Program-made: the position numbers and the translations under genes
Notes under the pieces: generated by a model
Database searches by the model: none
Seen by the model: the letters and a program-made list of their open reading frames with translations, nothing else
What the model was told of the DNA's origin: nothing
In this document: one piece after another, positions 4,318-14,525 of the stretch
How positions within the stretch are numbered: the first letter of the stretch is position 1
How the letters are laid out: each line of letters starts with the position of its first letter
Origin: Halorubrum alkaliphilum
GTDB taxonomy: Archaea > Halobacteriota > Halobacteria > Halobacteriales > Haloferacaceae
Length of the DNA: 44,890 nucleotides
Assembly: GCF_017873815.1 (NCBI RefSeq)
Contig: NZ_JAGGKQ010000023.1
Coordinates: 1-44,890, forward strand
Direction: 5' to 3'

Positions 4318-4962
4318 TTAGTCAGCACTAATCGTTATCGTACCACTCAGGTCGCCCTCATCCACCTCTACGCCGTCTTGCGTCGTGTCAAATAGTAGTG
4401 AGACGTATACCGATTCACCTGCACCAACATCTTCGACAGTGAATGGCCAAGATCCCTCAAAGTATTCCTCGCCAACCTCGCCACCGGAATCGGCCCGGTC
4501 TGTGTGCTGATCTCCGTCATAATACATTCCCGCTGCTACATGTTGATCAAATCCACCTGTCCCCCCAATAGCGGGGAAGTCACCCCACAAACCAATCTCG
4601 TGAGGTTGGGTATCATTATTGGTGATAACAAAAGCATAGTCTTCAGTTGGGTCGCCACCAACATCAACCCAATCCGCATCACCATCTTCTGCGAGGGCAC
4701 CTATCTGATAGCGGGCGTTGTTATTGAGCCCTTCAGCACCCTCATCAGTTGGAACATCGATTTCCAAATTACCTTCATTATCTTGATTAACGAAGTCATG
4801 ATTGTCGCTGGCCTGCAATGCTACAAGCCCAACATCGTCAGACACAACATCCACGTTCACGTCGCGGTCCGCGTCCATCGCGCTGAACGCGCCCGTCCCC
4901 ACTGCAGCCGCGCTACCTGATGCCAATGCCCCTGCGCCGATGATGAACTTGCGTCGTTCCAT
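4318..4962 (-). CDS. Secreted DUF1102-type protein with SipW/Tat-like signal
   Basis: A 214-residue protein starting MERRKFIIGAGALASGSAAA and followed by VGTGAFSAMDADRDVNV: twin Arg, hydrophobic core, then a GTGAFS cleavage-like site. This is the leader typical of haloarchaeal DUF1102 / SipW-dependent-type proteins. The mature part is beta-rich with a conserved-looking AFVITNNDTQPHEIGLW segment and ends VYVSLLFDTT...GTITISAD. I chose ATG 4962 over the longer frame from 5049 because the signal starts there. GC content drops inside the gene (about 4500-4830) relative to its neighbours, suggesting a different history. It is a candidate client of the SipW-like peptidase at 11059-12222; structural surface or filament protein is an inference. 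Confidence 0.7.
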   Translation of the reverse strand: MERRKFIIGAGALASGSAAAVGTGAFSAMDADRDVNVDVVSDDVGLVALQASDNHDFVNQDNEGNLEIDVPTDEGAEGLNNNARYQIGALAEDGDADWVDVGGDPTEDYAFVITNNDTQPHEIGLWGDFPAIGGTGGFDQHVAAGMYYDGDQHTDRADSGGEVGEEYFEGSWPFTVEDVGAGESVYVSLLFDTTQDGVEVDEGDLSGTITISAD

Positions 4963-5237: not shown

Positions 5238-6125
5238 CTACACAAACGCCGGCCCCGCCACCGACGCGTCCTCCGCGTCCCGCCACGAGCGGTCGGGCTC
5301 CCAGCCGAGCACGCGGGCCGCCTTCGAGCAGTCGAAGATCGACTCGGTCCCCTTGACCGCACAGGTCGCGGGCAGGTCGCCGTGGACCGCCTCGATCGTC
5401 GCGGCCGTGTCGCGGCCGAGGAAGTTCTCCGCGGCGGCGACGAGCACCGGCTCGTGGCCGTCGATCTCGGCGTCGATCGCCGCCTCGATCGCACGAACGA
5501 GGTCGCGCACGTCGATGTGGCTCCAGCCGTTGCCGCTCAACGCGGCCGTCTCCGGGTCGAACCCCTCGCGCGCTTCCCGGGTCCGCGTCTCACCGGGATA
5601 CGTCACCCACGACGACCGGAGTGACACCGCGCCGACGCCGTGCCGCCGCGCGACGCGCGCGGCCACGTCCTCGCCGACGACCTTCGAGAGTCCGTAGGGG
5701 TCCTCCGGCTCGGTCGGCGTCTCCTCGTCGATCGGGAGCGCGTCCGGCAGCCAGTCGTCTTCGGAGAACACGGTGCCGTAGAGGCTCTCGCTCGACGCCT
5801 GGACGATCCGCGCGTCGACCGCACCCGCGGCGTCAAGGACGTTGTACGTACTGGTGACGTTGGTCTCGAACACGCGCGAGCCCGCGTGGTCCTCGGGGTT
5901 TGGGATCGCCGCGAGGTGGACGACCGCGTCCGGCTCCGCGGCCTCGACGAGCTGGCGCGTCTCGCCGTAGTCGGTCAGGTCCGCGGCTTTGAAATCGACG
6001 TTTTCGCGGGTTCCGCTTGGCGTTTCGAGGTCGACGCCGACGACGTCGTGGCCCTCGCGGGCGAACTGTTCGACCGTCCAACTGCCGACGCCGCCGCAGG
6101 CTCCCGTGACGAGGATGGTTGGCAT
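5238..6125 (-). CDS. NAD-dependent epimerase/dehydratase (extended SDR)
   Basis: A 295-residue Rossmann protein starting MPTILVTGACGGVGSWTVEQ: TGACGGVGS is the GxxGxxG NAD-binding motif (residues 7-15). GVDLE supplies the acidic residue after beta 2 that favours NAD(H), AAIPNPE follows beta 4, and SSES...YGLSK provides the catalytic Ser and YxxxK. The C-terminal half (SHIDVRDLVRAIEAAID, ENFLGRDTAATIEAV) resembles UDP-sugar epimerases and uronate/hexose dehydrogenases. Substrate cannot be set from sequence; a nucleotide-sugar or aldose is likely. It stands alone between two secreted-protein genes on the same strand and might supply surface glycosylation, but that is inference. Confidence 0.85.
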   Translation of the reverse strand: MPTILVTGACGGVGSWTVEQFAREGHDVVGVDLETPSGTRENVDFKAADLTDYGETRQLVEAAEPDAVVHLAAIPNPEDHAGSRVFETNVTSTYNVLDAAGAVDARIVQASSESLYGTVFSEDDWLPDALPIDEETPTEPEDPYGLSKVVGEDVAARVARRHGVGAVSLRSSWVTYPGETRTREAREGFDPETAALSGNGWSHIDVRDLVRAIEAAIDAEIDGHEPVLVAAAENFLGRDTAATIEAVHGDLPATCAVKGTESIFDCSKAARVLGWEPDRSWRDAEDASVAGPAFV

Positions 6126-6267: not shown

Positions 6268-7188
6268 TCAACCGTTTCCTCTGGTGTCTCCAGGGTCGGG
6301 CTCCGGCCAGTCCTCTGGGAAGCTGATATCATCCTTACCGTGTTTTGGATTATAGTAGACAAGACCGCGGTCCACGAAGTAGACGGCGAGGAGTTTACCT
6401 CTAGGATCGAATTCGTCTTCGTCGTCTGGCTTCGCGTTTTTGAACTGCTCATGCTCGTCCGTGTCCCACGTGATCGGCTTCCCAGAACTCGGTTCGATGC
6501 GTGTGTCGTCGCTGTTTCCGCTTGGCTCCTCGTAGAGCGCGAGTACGTCGACGACCACCCCCTCCGGCTCAAAAAAGACGTTCCCGTTGCCGGCAAACTC
6601 CGGGACGCCGGGCTCAACTGCTGTATCATCTTCCTCTCCCTCGATCGCGAACGACCGCGTGTCGCCGAACAACTGCGCCGTGACGCCGGTCCCCTCAATA
6701 CCTTTGACAGTGATCGTTACGACGATCTCGACCTCTTCATCTGGATCGATCTCTCCGATTTTCGCTCTGATCCGCTCACGACCTCCGGGACCAAACCCGG
6801 ACTCAGGTGTGTCAATTTCTTCTGGGCCGGGAGACCCCTCTACGATCTCCGCTTGTTCGACCTCATTAAATCCGTCATCATCACCCGACTTTCGTTCCAC
6901 TCTGTACTCCTCGAACGCGTTCTGTCCCTCCTCGACACCGACGCCGACGATCGCAATCTCCTGATCCGCTCCGAACCGGTTTCGGACCTCAACAAGAGTT
7001 ATTTTGTCGCCTTCGCTGACGACGTCCTCATCGCTCGGCGTCTCGTACCCCACCACCGCACTTTCGTCGTCCACCACGCTCACGTTCACCCCGCGCTCCA
7101 TCTGCGCGCTGCTGAACGCGCCGGAGCCGATCGTCATCGCGCCGGCGCTCGACCCGCCGAGCATGAGGATGAGCTGTCGTCGTTTCAT
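6268..7188 (-). CDS. Secreted acidic protein with DUF1102-like leader
   Basis: A 306-residue protein starting MKRRQLILMLGGSSAGAMTI then GSGAFSSAQMERGVNVSVVD, the same leader pattern as the gene at 4318-4962 (twin Arg, hydrophobic core, GAFS). The mature part is very acidic, with beta-type segments (KITLVEVRNRFGADQEIAIV, EEVEIVVTITVKGIEGTGV) and a C-terminal LLAVYFVDRGLVYYNPKHG. No catalytic motif is visible and there is no C-terminal membrane segment, so it should be released or surface-held by protein contacts. It shares its upstream element with the other secreted gene. Function unknown. Confidence 0.7.
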   Translation of the reverse strand: MKRRQLILMLGGSSAGAMTIGSGAFSSAQMERGVNVSVVDDESAVVGYETPSDEDVVSEGDKITLVEVRNRFGADQEIAIVGVGVEEGQNAFEEYRVERKSGDDDGFNEVEQAEIVEGSPGPEEIDTPESGFGPGGRERIRAKIGEIDPDEEVEIVVTITVKGIEGTGVTAQLFGDTRSFAIEGEEDDTAVEPGVPEFAGNGNVFFEPEGVVVDVLALYEEPSGNSDDTRIEPSSGKPITWDTDEHEQFKNAKPDDEDEFDPRGKLLAVYFVDRGLVYYNPKHGKDDISFPEDWPEPDPGDTRGNG

Positions 7189-7400: not shown

Positions 7401-7976
7401 CTACAGCTCTGGGGGTTCGTCCGGCTTCCCGACTTTCATCTCGGTGGTGTAGTACTTGTGTCCGAGCGCAGAGAACGCGAATGCGACGACGATGGCGAGC
7501 GTCCATGCAAGTTCGGGGAGGAGCACGAACGGCCACGCACCCATCCAAACGGCCGCAACGAGCGCGGCTGCGACCCCTGATAAGCCGAGATAATACTCGC
7601 TCCACGGGATTTCTTTTCCTTCGACAACGTCGAGATACAGATCGACGTCTTCCAGTGCCGTGGTCGGCGCAACAATCCCACGATTCTTATTGAACTCGAC
7701 TACCCCTGCTCGATCCATCTTCGGCAGATGCGACTGCTGGAGTGCGGTGTACACGCGCTTGCGCTCGTTCCCCGTGATCTCCCGCGTATCAGTGCCGTTC
7801 TCCCACGCCGCGATCTGCTCCGCCATCTTCCCGATCTCCATCGACTCCTCCTCGCGTTTCAGGAGGTGTACTGCGAATCGTCGTCGCTGGTTCGCGAGGA
7901 CATCAAACAGCTCGTCCTCGGAGATCTCCGGCCCGGCAGCGGAGGGTTTCCCGTCGATCTGCTGTGCCGATGCCAT
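7401..7976 (-). CDS. Membrane-anchored wHTH regulator (DUF7344-like)
   Basis: A 191-residue protein. Residues about 18-100 form the haloarchaeal winged-helix domain seen in DUF7344 proteins: ISEDELFDVLANQRRRFAVH, then KRVYTALQQSHLPKMDRAGV. Two membrane segments follow near the C-terminus (YYLGLSGVAAALVAAVWMG and LAWTLAIVVAFAFSAL). I chose ATG 7976 (MASAQQIDG) because the longer frame from 8105 adds sequence unlike the family and would run through the AT-rich promoter area. It is divergent from the surface-protein operon and sits between three genes with a common upstream motif, so it is the obvious candidate regulator. That link is inference. Confidence 0.75.
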   Translation of the reverse strand: MASAQQIDGKPSAAGPEISEDELFDVLANQRRRFAVHLLKREEESMEIGKMAEQIAAWENGTDTREITGNERKRVYTALQQSHLPKMDRAGVVEFNKNRGIVAPTTALEDVDLYLDVVEGKEIPWSEYYLGLSGVAAALVAAVWMGAWPFVLLPELAWTLAIVVAFAFSALGHKYYTTEMKVGKPDEPPEL

Positions 7977-8211
7977 TTCGTATACAACATATGATCCGTC
8001 CAACATAAAACCCTCGGAGCGTTTGGACGATCTGATACGTTCTGAGATCAGGAGACTCCACTCTATGGCTAGTGAAAAACGGACGTGTGAGTCATTTGAG
8101 TACAATTTACTATAGGTTTATTCTAATATTCGAGTTTCATATCAATATTTAAACAACGAAACCTATTGCCCAACGGATCGGATTCCTTCAGATGTTGGGC
8201 CCACTATCCGC

Positions 8212-8433: not shown

Positions 8434-10029
8434 ATGTCACGACTACGAACGATCCTCGCCGTTGTCGCGCTCGTGCTTGCGGGGTCGCTCGCGCTCGCGA
8501 CCGGTGCGAGCGTTATCGGCGGGCCCGCGGATACCCTCGCCGACGACCGTGTGGCGATCCAACCGGCGGACGGGTCGAACGGCGACTACGCCTATCTCGA
8601 CGCGGACGACGAGCTTGTGGTCGATGTCTCAGCGTCGAATCCCAACCTCGATGGCGAGTTCAGCGGCGTAAACGTGAATTCCAGAGCCGTCATCGGGGAC
8701 GTGTTCACAATAACGTACACCGCGGGAGAGACGGCGAGCGTCTGGATAGACCACGACGTTCCCGGCGTCTCGTTCGTTGTCGCGGACGACTCGACGGCTG
8801 CCGGCTCCGACCCCGACTACCGCCTCATTGAGGGCGACGAGGGAGACGTGACTCTCGCCCCGAACGAGTCGGTATCCGTCGGGCTGGTCGTCGATACTAC
8901 CGATCTCGACGCGGTCGCCGGGACGATCACGGAAAATCAGTTCTCGATCCACGCGACCGTCACGGAACCGGACGAGGAGGGCGACACGGTGGACTCGTCC
9001 GGTCCTAGCCTGACTATCGACGCGCCAAGCCGGTCTGAGCGGCGGTTCGGGGCAAGTGGCGCCGAGGATGGTGACACTGTTCGGTTCGATGCGGACGAGA
9101 TGCGTCTCGACGACCGGAACGTGACCCTCGACCGCCTCGACCTCGTCGGTGCGTCGGCCGGGAGCTACGATCTGGCGGTTGCTGGCAGTCCAGAGGCAAT
9201 CGACGAGGCGGGTCCACTCGACGCCGACGGGGACCCCCGACCGCTCGCGTACCTCTCGCTCGAGTACGACTTCGACCCGATGGATGTCGACGGGCTCCGG
9301 TTCCTGTTTAGTGCCGACTCGGCATTCCTCGCAGAGAGCGAGACGGCTCCGGAAGCCGTTACCCTCTATCGACTGAACGACGACGGAGTGTGGGACGAGC
9401 TCGACGCCGGACTCGTCGACGAGCGGCTCGTCGAACTGCGGGACTCCCCGCCCGACCGGACACACTTCTCGGCGACGTCCGATGGTTTCTCCACGTTCGC
9501 GGTGGCGGTACACACGCCACGGATCGGTGCGGTCGAGGCGTCGATCGCGACCGATTCGATCGACGTGGGCGAGTCGACGACCGTCGAGGCTCGCGTCGAG
9601 AACGACGGTGGGGCGGCCGGGGACCACTCCCTGACGCTGACAGCCGACGGCGACTCGCTCGCGACTCGAGAGGTCGCGTTGGATCCGGGCGAGTCGACGA
9701 CCGTCTCGTTCCCCGTCTCGATCGAAGCAGCTGGCGACTACGAGGTCGCCGTTGACGACGCTCCGGCGGGGACGCTCCGCGTCACCGACGTGGCCACCGC
9801 GGACGGCGACCAGGAGGGAGACGGCGCGAGTAGCGACGGGGACGCGGGAGACGGCGGAGATGCGGGAGACGACACGGACGCGAGCCTCGATGACACGGCT
9901 GAGCCGGCGGACGGGCCGACCGAGGAGCCCGGCGGGTTCGGTCTCCGCCAGGCTGGCGGGCTCAGCGCGCTGCTGTTCATCGTCGTCGTGTCGCTGTTGC
10001 TGGCCCGTCGTGCGCCGGGCGGTTCGTGA
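8434..10029 (+). CDS. Surface protein: DUF1102 + PGF-pre-PGF-like + CARDB domains, C-terminal TM
   Basis: About 531 residues. The N-terminal signal (MSRLRTILAVVALVLAGSLA) is followed by a DUF1102-like beta domain (about residues 35-190; DDELVVDVSASNPNL, SVWIDHDVPGVSFVVADD, VSVGLVVDTTDL). Then comes a PGF-pre-PGF-like domain (about 200-365; RFGASGAEDGD, TLYRLNDDGVWDEL, FSTFAVAVH) and a CARDB-type domain (about 370-455; GAVEASIATDSIDVGESTTV). A low-complexity Asp/Gly/Ser linker precedes a single C-terminal membrane helix (LSALLFIVVVSLLLARR). It heads an operon with rhomboid, SipW-like peptidase and DUF5305 genes, so it is the natural substrate candidate. Starts at 8347 and 8410 are possible; 8434 fits the promoter best. 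Confidence 0.75.
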   Translation: MSRLRTILAVVALVLAGSLALATGASVIGGPADTLADDRVAIQPADGSNGDYAYLDADDELVVDVSASNPNLDGEFSGVNVNSRAVIGDVFTITYTAGETASVWIDHDVPGVSFVVADDSTAAGSDPDYRLIEGDEGDVTLAPNESVSVGLVVDTTDLDAVAGTITENQFSIHATVTEPDEEGDTVDSSGPSLTIDAPSRSERRFGASGAEDGDTVRFDADEMRLDDRNVTLDRLDLVGASAGSYDLAVAGSPEAIDEAGPLDADGDPRPLAYLSLEYDFDPMDVDGLRFLFSADSAFLAESETAPEAVTLYRLNDDGVWDELDAGLVDERLVELRDSPPDRTHFSATSDGFSTFAVAVHTPRIGAVEASIATDSIDVGESTTVEARVENDGGAAGDHSLTLTADGDSLATREVALDPGESTTVSFPVSIEAAGDYEVAVDDAPAGTLRVTDVATADGDQEGDGASSDGDAGDGGDAGDDTDASLDDTAEPADGPTEEPGGFGLRQAGGLSALLFIVVVSLLLARRAPGGS

Positions 10030-10085
10030 TCGGCGGTCGAACGTATGGCGACAACGATTTACTACGAGTGTGTGAGTGACGCACC

Positions 10086-11009
10086 GTGACGTTGAACGAA
10101 CATGGTGAGGGCGACCAGACTGAGCGAGTCCCGTTCCGGACGGCTCTCGCTGAGGGTGTAAGGCCCTCCGATGTGCTGCTGCTGGCGCTCGTCCCGATGG
10201 CGCTTCTCTGGGTATTCTCGCTTCCGGAGTCGACGCGTCGCTCGCTCGCGTTCGCCTACGCCGATCCCACGCTCCTCACGGCGTTCACCGCACACTACGT
10301 TCATCTCCAGTTCGAACACCTACTCGCAAACCTCGTCGGCTACGGACTGCTTGCCGGCGTCGGGTATCTGGTGGCGACCGCGAGTCGCCAGCGGCGTCTC
10401 TTCGTTACCTCGTTCGTAACGTTCTGTCTCGCGTTCCCGTTCGCGCTGTCCGCGTTGAACCTCGCAGTCCCCCGCGACGCCATCGGGTTCGGCTTCTCCG
10501 GCATCAACATGGCGTTCGCAGGGGTGCTTCCGTTGTTGCTCGCGGTGTTCGCGTGTCGTCGACTCGGCTCGGAGGCGTCGACACACCCGGCCGATCTTCC
10601 AGTGCGACTCCTGCCCGCGACGTTCCTGCTGCTGGTCGGCTGGATGGCCGCGCTCGCGCTGCCGACCGCGCTCGGCGCACGCGGGCTCGCCGGCCCCCTC
10701 GTGATGCTTCTCGGAGCCGTCGTGGCTGCCAGACAGCTTCGTTCGCTTCGGCCGCCGAACGGGCCGTCGCTCCTCGGCTCCCTTCGATCTGCCGTCCGCC
10801 GGATCCGTGACCGGCCGGGGGACGGGGACGTGTTCGTGGTCGGCAGCGTCCTCGCCGTCGCGTATCCGGTCGTCGGGTTTCCCACGGACGCGACGGTCGA
10901 CGGACGGGTGATCAACCTGTACGTCCATCTGCTCGGCTTCTGTCTCGCGTTTATCGGGCCCTACGTCCTGATCGTCGCCGGCGGATTCGCCGACCCGCGA
11001 ACTTATTAA
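10086..11009 (+). CDS. Rhomboid-family intramembrane serine protease
   Basis: A 307-residue polytopic membrane protein starting at GTG 10086. Rhomboid marks are all present: HLQFEHLLANLVGYG (His73, His78, Asn82; the oxyanion/TM2 region), GFGFSGINMAFAG with the GxSG nucleophile Ser138, and a late helix INLYVHLLGFCLAFIG with His281 as catalytic partner. Several further hydrophobic helices bring the total to about seven or more. There is a longer than usual loop (about residues 235-265) before the His helix. It lies 56 bases after the surface-protein gene and 49 before the signal peptidase, so co-transcription is likely. A substrate with a C-terminal TM is encoded next door, but cleavage is inferred. 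Confidence 0.8.
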   Translation: MTLNEHGEGDQTERVPFRTALAEGVRPSDVLLLALVPMALLWVFSLPESTRRSLAFAYADPTLLTAFTAHYVHLQFEHLLANLVGYGLLAGVGYLVATASRQRRLFVTSFVTFCLAFPFALSALNLAVPRDAIGFGFSGINMAFAGVLPLLLAVFACRRLGSEASTHPADLPVRLLPATFLLLVGWMAALALPTALGARGLAGPLVMLLGAVVAARQLRSLRPPNGPSLLGSLRSAVRRIRDRPGDGDVFVVGSVLAVAYPVVGFPTDATVDGRVINLYVHLLGFCLAFIGPYVLIVAGGFADPRTY

Positions 11010-11058
11010 TCACCGTCTACTCCATCCGCTCAGGAACGGATTGATTACTGCTTGACAC

Positions 11059-12222
11059 ATGTCCCCCCGACGAACCCTCTCGATACTGGCCCAGGCGACT
11101 GCGGTAGTGATCGTGCTCTCGCTCGTCGTCGGACAGTATCTGGGTCAGCCGGTCCTCTTGAGTTTCGTCGAGACCGGGAGCATGCAGCCGACGCTCGACC
11201 CCGGAGACGGGTTTATCGCCGTCCCCGCCCCGCTCGCGGGCGGCATCGGAACCGGTGACGTCGTGACGTTCGACGCCCAGGAGATCGAGGGCGGCGGGCT
11301 GACGACACATCGAGTCGTCGAGGAGACCGAGCGGGGCTACGTTACGCAGGGTGATGCCAATCCGTTCACGGATCAGGACGGGGGTGAACCGATCGTTCAG
11401 GACGCGGACATCGTCGCCACGGCGTTCACCGCCGGCGGATCCGTGGTGGTGATACCACACCTCGGAACGGTTGCAATGTCGTTCCAGTCGGGCCTCGAGT
11501 CCGTACAGACGTGGCTGTCCGTGACGCTCGGGACGCGGGCGCTACAGGGGACACAGGGGCTGGCGTACCTCCTGTTCGGGCTCTCCATCGTCGCGTACGC
11601 GGCCGACTGGTATCTCACGAGCGGGAGTCGCGACCGGCCCGACCGTGACCGATCGCGTGACGACGGCACCTCCGTACTCCTCGTTCTCGGTCTGCTGGCG
11701 CTCGTGTTGATGGCGACGGCGACGGCGGCGATGGTCGCTCCCGGCGGCACACAGGAGTACGGCGTCGTCAGCGCCGACTTCGAGTCAGACAACCCCACCG
11801 TGATCGAACGTGGGACGAGCGAGGAGTTGGAGTACATCGTTCCCAACGCCGGGCTCGTCCCGGTACAGACGTACGTAACCCCGGCCAGTCAGGGTGTCGA
11901 GGTCGACCCCGAGCGGGTCGCGGTCGGGGGACGCGAGGAGGCGTCGACGACGGTGACGCTCACCGCCCCCGACGAGACCGGCTACTACCGACTGTTCGTT
12001 GAGGAACACCGGTATCTCGCGGTGTTGCCGCCGGCGCTCATCGACGACCTCTACGGTGTCCACCCGTGGGCTCCGATCGTGGCGATAAACGGGCTGCTCG
12101 GCGGCGGGATACTGCTAACCGGCCTGCTGTTGTTGCGCGGGGAGCCGGCGCGGATCCGGTCCCGGAGATCCCGTCGGAAGACCTCGCTCCATCGGCGGCT
12201 GCTACGCGAACTCTACAAGTAA
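11059..12222 (+). CDS. SipW-like archaeal signal peptidase I (S26B) with C-terminal beta/TM extension
   Basis: A 387-residue membrane protein. The N-terminal anchor (ATAVVIVLSLVVGQYL) leads into TGSMQPTLDPGDG, with the nucleophile Ser41, and GDVVTFD...THRVVE with His84 in place of the bacterial Lys: this is the S26B type of archaea and Bacillus SipW. TQGDAN (Asp99) is the third expected site. Further TM helices lie at about 165-185 and 210-230, then a beta-rich extracellular domain, then a last TM (about 345-365) and an Arg/Lys-rich cytoplasmic tail. It is longer than housekeeping archaeal signal peptidases (about 150-300). It is followed after 3 bases by the DUF5305 gene, indicating one operon and a dedicated processing role. 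Confidence 0.85.
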   Translation: MSPRRTLSILAQATAVVIVLSLVVGQYLGQPVLLSFVETGSMQPTLDPGDGFIAVPAPLAGGIGTGDVVTFDAQEIEGGGLTTHRVVEETERGYVTQGDANPFTDQDGGEPIVQDADIVATAFTAGGSVVVIPHLGTVAMSFQSGLESVQTWLSVTLGTRALQGTQGLAYLLFGLSIVAYAADWYLTSGSRDRPDRDRSRDDGTSVLLVLGLLALVLMATATAAMVAPGGTQEYGVVSADFESDNPTVIERGTSEELEYIVPNAGLVPVQTYVTPASQGVEVDPERVAVGGREEASTTVTLTAPDETGYYRLFVEEHRYLAVLPPALIDDLYGVHPWAPIVAINGLLGGGILLTGLLLLRGEPARIRSRRSRRKTSLHRRLLRELYK

Positions 12223-12225
12223 CAC

Positions 12226-13570
12226 ATGAGTACACAACCAGATCCGGACGAGACCCGTATCCGCCTCCGAGCCCTGTTGGACGCACAGTTCACCCTGCTT
12301 GTCATCGTCTGTGTCGTCCTCGCCGCGGCCGGCGGGGTTCTGGTCTACGGCACCTACGTCGACCCGGGGACCGAAACGGAGAGTCAGGAAGTCTCTTCGT
12401 GGAGCTACGACGCCGGGTACGACCACTCCGCCGAAGTCACCGAGCCGAACGAAGTGTTCCCGGTCGGCACCGTTCTCGAAGACCGTGAGACGTACTTCAC
12501 CCGGATCGCTCCCGAACTCGACGTCGCGGCAGAACTCGTGTACGCCGCCGAGCAGTCCGAGGACGTCCGCGTCGACATCGAGTCGGAACGCCGGCGATGG
12601 CGTGGTGTACTGGGAGGAGACCGAGCCGCTCGAACCAGTCAGCGTGGAGGACCCCGAGCCCGGCGAGGTCGTCGCGGCCGAGTTCACGCTCAACAGCTCC
12701 GCGATCGACGAGCGGGCGACGTCGATCGAGGAGGATCTGGGCGCGTCTCCGGGGCAGACCGACGCCATCGTCTCCACCGAGTTCGAACTGGAGGGCCAGC
12801 TTAACGGCGAGACCATCACGCGCTCGCCGTCATTGGAACTCGAGATCGACCACGCCGGCGACACCTACACCGTCGACGATCCGGATCCCGCGTCGGAGAC
12901 GGTGCCACAGGAAGTCACTCGGGAAGTCGAGCGCACGTACGGACCGCTCCGGACGATCGGCGCGCCGATCCTGCTCGTGATCGGCGTCGTCGCCGGTGTG
13001 GGCCTCTCGTACGGTCGGTACGAGGGACTCCTCGAAGTGAGCGATACAGAGCGGGCGTACCTCTCGTATCGGGACGACCGCTCGGAGTTCGACGAGTGGA
13101 TCACCCGGATCCGGCTCCCGCCGGAGGCTCACGATCGACCGGTGGCGTACGCCGATAGCCTGCGCGACCTCGTCGATTTCGCCATCGACAACGAGACCGG
13201 CGTCATCGAGGACCCCGACACCGGCGCGTTCCACGCGGTCACCGGTGAGTTCGTCTACACCTACCGACGGCCCGATCCGCCGGCCCGCCGCTCCGACCCG
13301 GACGGGACCGAAGCGGCGTCGGCAGCAACCGGTGGGACGGTCAACGGCGACGAGACGGCCGACGACGGCACGGCGGCCAACGACGGCACGGCGGCTGACG
13401 ACGGCGGGTCCCTCCTCGACATGGCTCCGTCCGACGGGGACTCCTCGCGGGATCCGTTCGATCCCGATCCGGCCGAGACGTCCCGATCCGAGGGACGCCC
13501 GGTCGACAACGACGACGGTATCGAGGGCGATGACGGTACGACGGAACCGTCGTCGAAGGGCGGTCGATAA
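12226..13570 (+). pseudogene. DUF5305 membrane protein, split by a frameshift near 12585
   Basis: The first frame starts MSTQPDPDETRIRLRALLDA with a TM at about residues 22-44 and reads well to DIESE (about 12585). After that the sensible protein continues one base later in the next frame (NAGDGVVYWEETEPLEPVSV...) to the stop at 13570. The combined protein of about 448 residues has an N-terminal TM, an extracellular beta domain, a second TM (APILLVIGVVAGVGLSYG), a cytoplasmic part with YGRYEGLLEVSD and HAVTGEFVYTY, and a low-complexity acidic tail. This layout is that of DUF5305 proteins found beside SipW peptidases in haloarchaea. The +1 shift is either a sequence error, a real loss of function, or less likely recoding. 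Confidence 0.75.
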
Positions 13571-13622: not shown

Positions 13623-13817
13623 TCAGACGACCGGTTCGTAGCCGGCCTCCTCAACGGCGGCCGCAAGGGCGTCTGGGTCGGCGTCGCCCTCGACGGTCGC
13701 GGTGCCGGCCTCGTGGTCCGCGGTTGCTGCCTCCACGCCCGGGACTTCCGAGAGCGCGTCGATCACGTTATCCTCGCAGCCACCACACGCCATGCCATCG
13801 ACGTCTATCGTCGTCAT
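13623..13817 (-). CDS. Heavy-metal-associated (HMA) copper chaperone, CopZ-like
   Basis: A 64-residue protein starting MTTIDVDGMACGGCEDNVID, with the metal-binding GMxCxxC motif (Cys11, Cys14) and the usual HMA beta-alpha-beta pattern ending LAAAVEEAGYEPVV. The size fits CopZ-type chaperones that carry Cu(I) to P1B ATPases. I took ATG 13817 rather than 13838 because the family starts just before the first strand. It is divergent from an AsnC-TRASH regulator, a pairing known for copper response in haloarchaea. No copper ATPase gene is in the window. Confidence 0.85.
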   Translation of the reverse strand: MTTIDVDGMACGGCEDNVIDALSEVPGVEAATADHEAGTATVEGDADPDALAAAVEEAGYEPVV

Positions 13818-13851
13818 GGACGTGGATCCGGTCGCCACGAATAATTGGGTT

Positions 13852-13921
13852 TCCCCTCCGGCAGGACGCCTCCCCTGTGCGGGACGCTTCCCCTCGGGCA
13901 GGACGCTTTTTTTCCTGCCCG
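13852..13921. promoter_or_regulatory. Three tandem repeats and a stem in the copper regulator promoter
   Basis: Three imperfect units of TCCCCT-NN-GGCAGGACGC type lie head to tail at 13852-13870, 13871-13888 and 13889-13907 (18-19 base period). The last unit overlaps an inverted repeat, CGGGCAGGA (13895-13903) with TCCTGCCCG (13913-13921), around a T-rich loop. This is the intergenic space between the divergent HMA gene and the AsnC-TRASH gene starting at 13935. Tandem operators for the regulator are a reasonable guess, not shown. Confidence 0.5.
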
Positions 13922-13934
13922 GCGAGCGTTACGT

Positions 13935-14525
13935 ATGCGCACCCTCGACGAGACGGACCGTGAGATCCTGCGACTCCTGTTGGCGGACGCCAGACGCCCC
14001 TTCAGCGACATCGCCGACCGAGTCGACCTGTCCGCACCAGCGGTCTCCGACCGGATCGATCGACTCCGCGAGACGGGCGTCATCGAGGGGTTCACGCTCC
14101 GTGTCGACGCCGACGAGCTCTCCTCGGGACTGGAGGTGCTGGTGACGCTCGACGTCGCTCCCGTCGACGCCGAAGCGGCGTACGAGTCCCTCGCCGGCCA
14201 CGACCACGTGGAACACGCGACCTTGACCGCCGACGGCGACGTGACCGCTCTTGCCCGGGTCCCCGACGACGACGTCCGCGGGTTCGTCGACGGGACCGTG
14301 GGACTCGGTTCGGTTCGGGATCTGACCGTGCGGGTCGTGGACCGGCAGGAGTGGTCGCCGGGGCTCGGCGACGCCGACCTCGCCGTCGACTGCGTCGAGT
14401 GTGACAACACCGTCACCGCCGAGGGGGAGTCAGAGCGGATCGACGGGACGTTATATCACTTCTGTTGTGGGTCGTGTCGTCGGAACTTCCTCGACCGCTA
14501 CGAACGGTTGGACGAAGGGACCTGA
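13935..14525 (+). CDS. Lrp/AsnC regulator with C-terminal TRASH metal-sensing domain
   Basis: A 196-residue protein. Residues 1-60 are an AsnC-type HTH (MRTLDETDREILRLLLADAR, SAPAVSDRIDRLRETGVIEG), 65-140 the RAM-like ligand domain, and 150-196 a TRASH domain with Cys pairs (VDCVECDN and YHFCCGSCRRNFLDRYERL) for metal binding. This architecture matches the copper-responsive AsnC/TRASH regulators described in Halobacterium. The start at 13935 is chosen because upstream codons in the same frame encode the tandem-repeat spacer. It lies divergent from the HMA chaperone, so it probably controls copper export and handling genes. Confidence 0.85.
   Translation: MRTLDETDREILRLLLADARRPFSDIADRVDLSAPAVSDRIDRLRETGVIEGFTLRVDADELSSGLEVLVTLDVAPVDAEAAYESLAGHDHVEHATLTADGDVTALARVPDDDVRGFVDGTVGLGSVRDLTVRVVDRQEWSPGLGDADLAVDCVECDNTVTAEGESERIDGTLYHFCCGSCRRNFLDRYERLDEGT

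Follow-up and report, generated by a model that had tools for sequence, protein, structure and literature searches.

A candidate rhomboid/C-terminal tail sorting pair associated with Tat-fimbriae clusters in haloarchaea

Introduction

In bacterial rhombosortase systems, a rhomboid-fold Ser-His protease serves many proteins that share a C-terminal signal made up of a glycine motif, a transmembrane (TM) helix and a basic tail, and protease and tail are co-distributed across genomes; it was this many-to-one pattern that first led to the proposal of the rhombosortase/GlyGly-CTERM pair (PMC3237569). In Vibrio cholerae (RssP/VesB), cleavage by rhombosortase is followed by attachment of glycerophosphoethanolamine, with the rhomboid's own role in the attachment unsettled (PMC6219818). 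The pairing of myxosortase with MYXO-CTERM likewise joins a lineage-specific intramembrane protease to a C-terminal tail (PMC11980579). In haloarchaea, the established pair is archaeosortase A (ArtA) and PGF-CTERM, and ethanolamine lipid synthesis has been linked to ArtA anchoring (PMC7157517). Haloarchaeal rhomboids that affect the cell surface, Rho1 and Rho2, have also been described in Haloferax volcanii, although their natural substrates are not yet identified (PMC11985538). Here we analyze a rhomboid gene that lies between the genes for a surface protein, an S26 signal peptidase and a DUF5305 membrane protein on a 44,890-base contig (the window). The contig belongs to a haloarchaeal draft genome of 3.1 Mb, for which most of the closest named relatives are Halorubrum.

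A sequence-only reading of the window had taken these genes for a dedicated surface-fibre processing system in which the rhomboid acts on the C-terminal TM helix of the surface protein. Our results redirect that interpretation, which was supported in part. The genes belong to a cluster of a described pilus type, the Tat-fimbriae (tafi), and the rhomboid and the tail of the surface protein are probably, judging from their sequences and distribution, a rhomboid/CTERM sorting pair that resembles rhombosortase systems and mainly serves tafi pili. These findings suggest an undescribed archaeal counterpart of the bacterial cut-and-sort systems for surface proteins.

Results

The evidence for pairing comes from the C-terminus of the surface protein, a relative of the tafi protein TafF. 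Its tail of about 37 residues recurs in related proteins, and an alignment of 33 rows is nearly gapless, with an invariant Glu, usually Pro-x-Gly-(Phe/Ile/Leu)-(Gly/Asp), a TM helix and Arg-Arg. Gly and Arg are near-invariant, and the consensus can be written as E-[PA]-x-[GA]-[FIL] followed by the TM helix and RR. Against the NCBIfam CTERM models, the 33 tails gave weak matches to 28 models, the best at E 0.001, and no single model matched more than 9 tails.

We surveyed 155 genomes of the order, delimiting the rhomboid clade at a score of at least 168 bits and its core at 300 bits or more; rhomboids missed by gene calling (e.g. at L066, L128, L139, L140, L154 and L159) were recovered from six-frame open reading frames (ORFs). 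Against the tail profile, rhomboid-adjacent TafF proteins nearly all scored 33-66 bits. TafF proteins whose genes immediately precede that of the peptidase, without an intervening rhomboid, scored -5.5 to 5.3 bits; these come from genomes without a core rhomboid (L111, L117, L119, L120, L121) or, in L110, from a genome that has a rhomboid elsewhere and a TafF protein with a PGF-type tail. Tail matches at E <=1e-5 were present in 24 of the 28 core-rhomboid genomes compared with 0 of the 127 others, counts that are uncorrected for shared ancestry. By genus, the tail occurred in 9/12 with a core rhomboid versus 0/45 others. The profile used in this survey was built from cluster proteins. As a control for circularity, we made a second profile from 13 tails, none of them from Halorubrum, and searched 1,268 distinct C-termini of loci that had not contributed to it. 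It recovered 62 at E <1e-3, all of them in rhomboid genomes, and no match fell between 4e-4 and 0.2.

The same distribution bears on whether the tail could instead be a relaxed PGF-CTERM signal processed by ArtA, leaving the rhomboid to other work, for example quality control of the membrane during pilus assembly. The two systems share an archaeal tripartite C-terminal tail and an intramembrane enzyme and occur in the same genomes, and EPGGFG does resemble the PGFG of the established haloarchaeal pathway (PMC7157517). However, ArtA belongs to an unrelated enzyme family, and many of the tails read PSGI or PAGL, without PGF. ArtA was present in 150 of the 155 genomes, including those with the tail, whereas the tail was confined to core-rhomboid genomes; because ArtA is near-universal in the order and the rhomboid/tail pair patchy, the tail does not follow ArtA. 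Moreover, the true PGF-CTERM tail on the TafF homologue of L110 was at noise level (E 2) with the 13-seed profile. On the strength of the ArtA distribution and the L110 score, we rejected PGF-CTERM as the main explanation, and processing by ArtA with a different task for the rhomboid seems very unlikely.

Away from the cluster, the tail was found solely in rhomboid genomes. The source genome has a second Taf-type cluster (L206:2535-6226, G000:C2) that encodes a TafF-like protein with this tail as well, and the 12 kb examined there contain neither a rhomboid nor an S26 gene. In a genome of the window's family (G115), the tail is carried by a 2,405-residue PKD/beta-helix protein, a 911-residue beta-helix protein and a 373-residue protein, and in Halorubrum salinum and Halorubrum laminariae it is found on two neighbouring large CARDB/PKD proteins beside a rhomboid outside any tafi operon. 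The predicted use of the tail is thus many-to-one, spanning TafF paralogues and PKD, beta-helix and CARDB proteins.

Co-occurrence could also arise if the cluster were inherited or transferred as a whole while the rhomboid acted on another protein, for example a pilin leader or DUF5305. The cluster does move as a block, as indicated by Halolamina rhomboids that nest among those of Halobacterium in a quick tree, and two genomes considered below have the rhomboid without the tail. Such hitchhiking nevertheless fails to account for the tail on proteins of other families encoded away from the cluster, or for its presence next to rhomboids that lie outside tafi clusters (L088, L093, L163, L174). 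Nor does it explain the TafF proteins of L112 and L113, which retain the tail (44-48 bits) though the rhomboid is distant in the same genome. We therefore regard this explanation as unlikely.

Several observations nonetheless weigh against a rhomboid/tail pair. Two genomes of one genus (G059 and G103; L082 and L083) have the rhomboid in a tafi operon with a TafF-like protein that lacks a C-terminal TM tail. Diverged rhomboids (27-35% identity, e.g. on a Haloferax mediterranei plasmid) also adjoin tafi genes, and because their partners lack the motif, we limit the claim of pairing to the core clade. The Fisher p-values of the co-distribution are uncorrected for shared ancestry, and some tail matches represent paralogous TafF proteins in one genus. 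Finally, the weak match of the window's rhomboid to the rhombosortase model TIGR03902 (21.3 bits, cut-off 84) is uninformative, as ordinary rhomboids in nearly all genomes and in all 14 controls, including E. coli, match equally well.

The rhomboid itself has the features expected of a protease. The GFSG motif and His named in the sequence-only reading were borne out: S138 and H281, together with H78 of an HxxxN motif, are invariant in 25 and 39 aligned relatives. Alignment of its AlphaFold model (pLDDT 88.7) to GlpG gave Z 15.6 across 167 residues (3.0 Å), compared with Z <=6.5 for unrelated proteins. By its modelled fold and Ser (GxSG)/His dyad, the protein is a member of the rhomboid intramembrane protease superfamily (S54), and since Ser and His are invariant, it would be expected to be active. 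Solved structures searched with the rhomboid sequence profile gave spurious RuBisCO matches only, and Foldseek found nothing below E 0.001 with the model of the rhomboid or with that of the surface protein's DUF1102 domain. We rejected membership of the bacterial rhombosortase family, given the score below cut-off and the equal scores of ordinary rhomboids; the TIGR03902 cut-off was exceeded in none of the 155 genomes surveyed. In a quick tree, whose long branches leave the exact root unsure, a long branch sets the window's rhomboid apart from three ordinary rhomboids of its own genome, a point of contrast with Rho1 and Rho2. The source genome also encodes a distant rhomboid relative without GxSG, probably a pseudoprotease, adjoining an AAA ATPase gene (L096:7233-8204, G000:C17). 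At L086, L169, L162 and L170, clade rhomboids adjoin response-regulator or sensor-kinase-like genes, instead of or besides tafi genes.

The gene neighbourhood is conserved. DUF5305 was found in 96 of the 155 genomes and the rhomboid clade in 32, every one of which was DUF5305-positive. In 27 of the 32, no more than 7 kb separates the rhomboid from DUF5305, the two genes being divergent in 6 genomes and the rhomboid upstream on the same strand in the other 21; this adjacency is far above chance. Conserved adjacency of the rhomboid with the peptidase and DUF5305 had been set beforehand as a test of the sequence-only reading, and the neighbours are indeed kept across several haloarchaeal families: the order TafF-like protein, rhomboid, S26 peptidase and DUF5305, with Taf-type pilins near, recurs in Halorubrum, Halobellus, Haloparvum, Halolamina, Halobacterium, Halospeciosus and Natronosalvus. 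Because other genomes have the same cluster without the rhomboid, which is absent from 64 of the 96 DUF5305 genomes, we consider the rhomboid an optional add-on. Among the diverged rhomboids, the one on H. mediterranei pHME505 (L222) lies in a plasmid tafi-type cluster with DUF5305 and is annotated merely as a hypothetical protein. On plasmids of Halorientalis marina and Halomicrobium urmianum (L225, L226), a diverged rhomboid stands beside a conserved 746-residue membrane protein and a 200-residue protein, with no tafi genes among its annotated neighbours.

The cluster is of the tafi type rather than a fibre system of unknown kind. The surface protein has 531 residues, with a signal peptide, an acidic linker and a single C-terminal TM helix (residues 506-524) followed by RR. 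Its DUF1102 (28.8 bits, cut-off 22.2) and CARDB (36.3 bits) domains and its C-terminal TM helix had been called correctly, whereas the PGF-pre-PGF domain reported alongside them is a sub-threshold match (17 bits, cut-off 28). The TafF model NF052523 matched residues 20-194 at 46.1 bits, under its cut-off of 420, and by sequence the protein is a distant TafF homologue only. That DUF1102 would have a TasA-like fold was upheld by the domain model (pLDDT 73.9), which most resembled 9p0a (VIA-align, Z 9.5 over 124 residues, 3.7 Å) and next the TasA-like bundling pilin of Pyrobaculum, 7ueg (Z 7.4 over 117 residues, 3.5 Å). Generic Ig-like folds reached up to Z 7.0, so the match to 9p0a is the informative one and that to 7ueg alone is not decisive. 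The entry 9p0a is the tafi pilin structure from Natrinema sp. J7-2, and tafi comprise TafA, TafC, TafE and TafF (Galeva et al., iScience 2025 28:111793, as cited in PMC12687288). From the flanking pilins and the match of the modelled DUF1102 domain to 9p0a, we identify the locus as a tafi-type pilus cluster. A literature search on DUF5305 and DUF1102 found nothing.

Downstream of the rhomboid, the S26 peptidase has Ser41 and His84, as predicted, together with Asp99. It had been called a SipW-type enzyme; this is a loose label, since it scored 24.9 bits with the SipW model NF046067 (cut-off 190) and came closer to archaeal signal peptidase I (49.6 bits, cut-off 51.85). The four same-strand genes and their gaps of 56, 49 and 3 bases were confirmed, with one correction to an otherwise mostly accurate description (Table 1). 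The last of them had been read as a single DUF5305 gene ending at 13570, and a frame break was missed: the N-terminal part and the domain (12611-13264) are in different frames, with the switch near 12,584. Relatives of this gene are single-frame, and almost every relative among the tblastn matches listed breaks at or near the same point of the window. The frame break may be a mutation or an assembly fault.

Table 1. Features of the pilus cluster in the window
Feature	Position	Strand	Evidence
Tat-signal pilin (TafA/TafE-like), signal ending GTGAFS	4318..4962	-	TafE 41 bits; phmmer E 2.9e-8 to 9p0a_C
Tat-signal Taf-type fimbrial protein (TafC/TafE-like)	6268..7188	-	TafE 39, TafC 36 bits; E 0.002 to 9p0a_C
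DUF7344 protein (probable regulator), divergent from operon	7401..8105	-	PF24035 102.5 bits; synteny
TafF-like surface protein: signal peptide, DUF1102 pilin-like domain, CARDB, Asp/Gly-rich linker, C-terminal sorting-type tail	8434..10029	+	
C-terminal tail EEPGGFG + TM helix + RR, candidate rhomboid recognition/cleavage signal	9922..10026	+	33-row alignment; genome survey
Divergent rhomboid intramembrane serine protease (S138, H281), candidate sorting protease	10086..11009	+	AlphaFold model; GlpG alignment
SipW-like S26 signal peptidase, Ser41/His84/Asp99, long C-terminal extension, three predicted TM helices	11059..12222	+	sigpep_I_arch 49.6 bits, SipW 24.9 bits
DUF5305 gene, N-terminal fragment (one TM), frame broken at 3' end	12226..12584	+	tblastn of intact relatives
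DUF5305 domain part, other frame than N-terminal fragment	12584..13570	+	PF17231 177.6 bits; tblastn

The divergent DUF7344 gene also adjoins most of the related clusters. In the window, a gene for an NAD-dependent epimerase-like protein (5238-6125) separates the two Taf-type pilin genes. Beyond the operon, positions 13623-14525 hold genes for a small heavy-metal-type protein and, next to it, a TRASH-domain regulator of the Lrp/AsnC type; the two may form a metal-response pair that has nothing to do with the pilus cluster.

Discussion

Our results support a model in which a haloarchaeal rhomboid and a C-terminal tail form a sorting pair that is most often found with tafi pili. The pilins and the TafF-like protein would be exported, and the SipW-like S26 peptidase, from its family and synteny, would remove their N-terminal signals. 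The TafF-like protein, a pilin-fold subunit with a long linker, is predicted to be held in the membrane at first by its C-terminal helix. The co-distribution, the adjacency and the catalytic dyad then point to a rhomboid that recognizes E-P-x-G-F, the TM helix and RR and cleaves at or near this tail. The product, which may be the base or anchor protein of the pilus, would be freed or, in the manner of bacterial rhombosortase systems, transferred to a lipid anchor. The survey further suggests that the same rhomboid serves other tail-bearing surface proteins encoded elsewhere in the genome.

The proposal that the rhomboid acts on the C-terminal TM helix is strengthened by the way the tail tracks the rhomboid, but release, the outcome first envisaged, is just one possibility and lipid re-attachment another. 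By analogy with the V. cholerae product and with the ethanolamine lipid synthesis linked to ArtA, lipid anchoring of the pilus base is plausible. We tentatively propose, at somewhat less than even confidence, a second haloarchaeal C-terminal sorting pathway beside ArtA, in which a rhomboid transpeptidase cuts E-P-x-G-F tails and lipid-anchors the base of the tafi pilus and adhesin-like proteins. The rhomboid might instead be a sheddase that cuts the tail solely to release the surface protein or adhesin, with no re-attachment, and so regulates detachment of the pilus rather than its anchoring. This is a variant of the sorting-pair model, with the same enzyme and tail and a different product, and it is a real possibility that nevertheless falls short of being the expected one. 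Most known rhomboids are hydrolases, the pairing of tail and rhomboid does not tell the fate of the product, and whether even the V. cholerae rhomboid itself attaches glycerophosphoethanolamine is unsettled (PMC6219818). On the other hand, the many-to-one occurrence of a tripartite tail on unrelated proteins is typical of sorting systems and not of regulated shedding (PMC3237569).

The proposed rhomboid/tail pair differs from each of the described systems that it resembles. Unlike rhombosortase/GlyGly-CTERM, it is archaeal, has the motif E-P-x-G-F and lies inside a pilus operon, in cells that lack both an outer membrane and type II secretion. An invariant Cys marks the MYXO-CTERM motif, whereas the haloarchaeal tail has no Cys. 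Bacillus TapA-SipW-TasA and the archaeal bundling pili resemble the locus in placing a dedicated archaeal-type signal peptidase beside TasA-fold fibre subunits, but the tapA-sipW-tasA operon has no rhomboid (PMC9674648). As for the tafi pili, the window's pilins match the solved pilin, the TafF-like protein its fold, and the NCBIfam Taf models the same genes; the differences are the CARDB domain and sorting-type tail of the TafF-like protein and the rhomboid in the cluster. If the published tafi description already includes a rhomboid, the module would be less new, although the tail pairing would stand.

In summary, we found that a divergent rhomboid gene in haloarchaeal tafi clusters is co-distributed with a C-terminal tail on TafF-like and other surface proteins. 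To our knowledge, the two would form the first known archaeal rhomboid/CTERM pair. Although the natural substrates of archaeal rhomboids are not established, our work names an enzyme, a tail and a handful of candidate substrates in cultured organisms. If the model is correct, it would reveal a way in which a TasA-like pilus of archaea may be fastened to the cell and would explain why some haloarchaeal surface proteins bear a tripartite tail other than PGF-CTERM.

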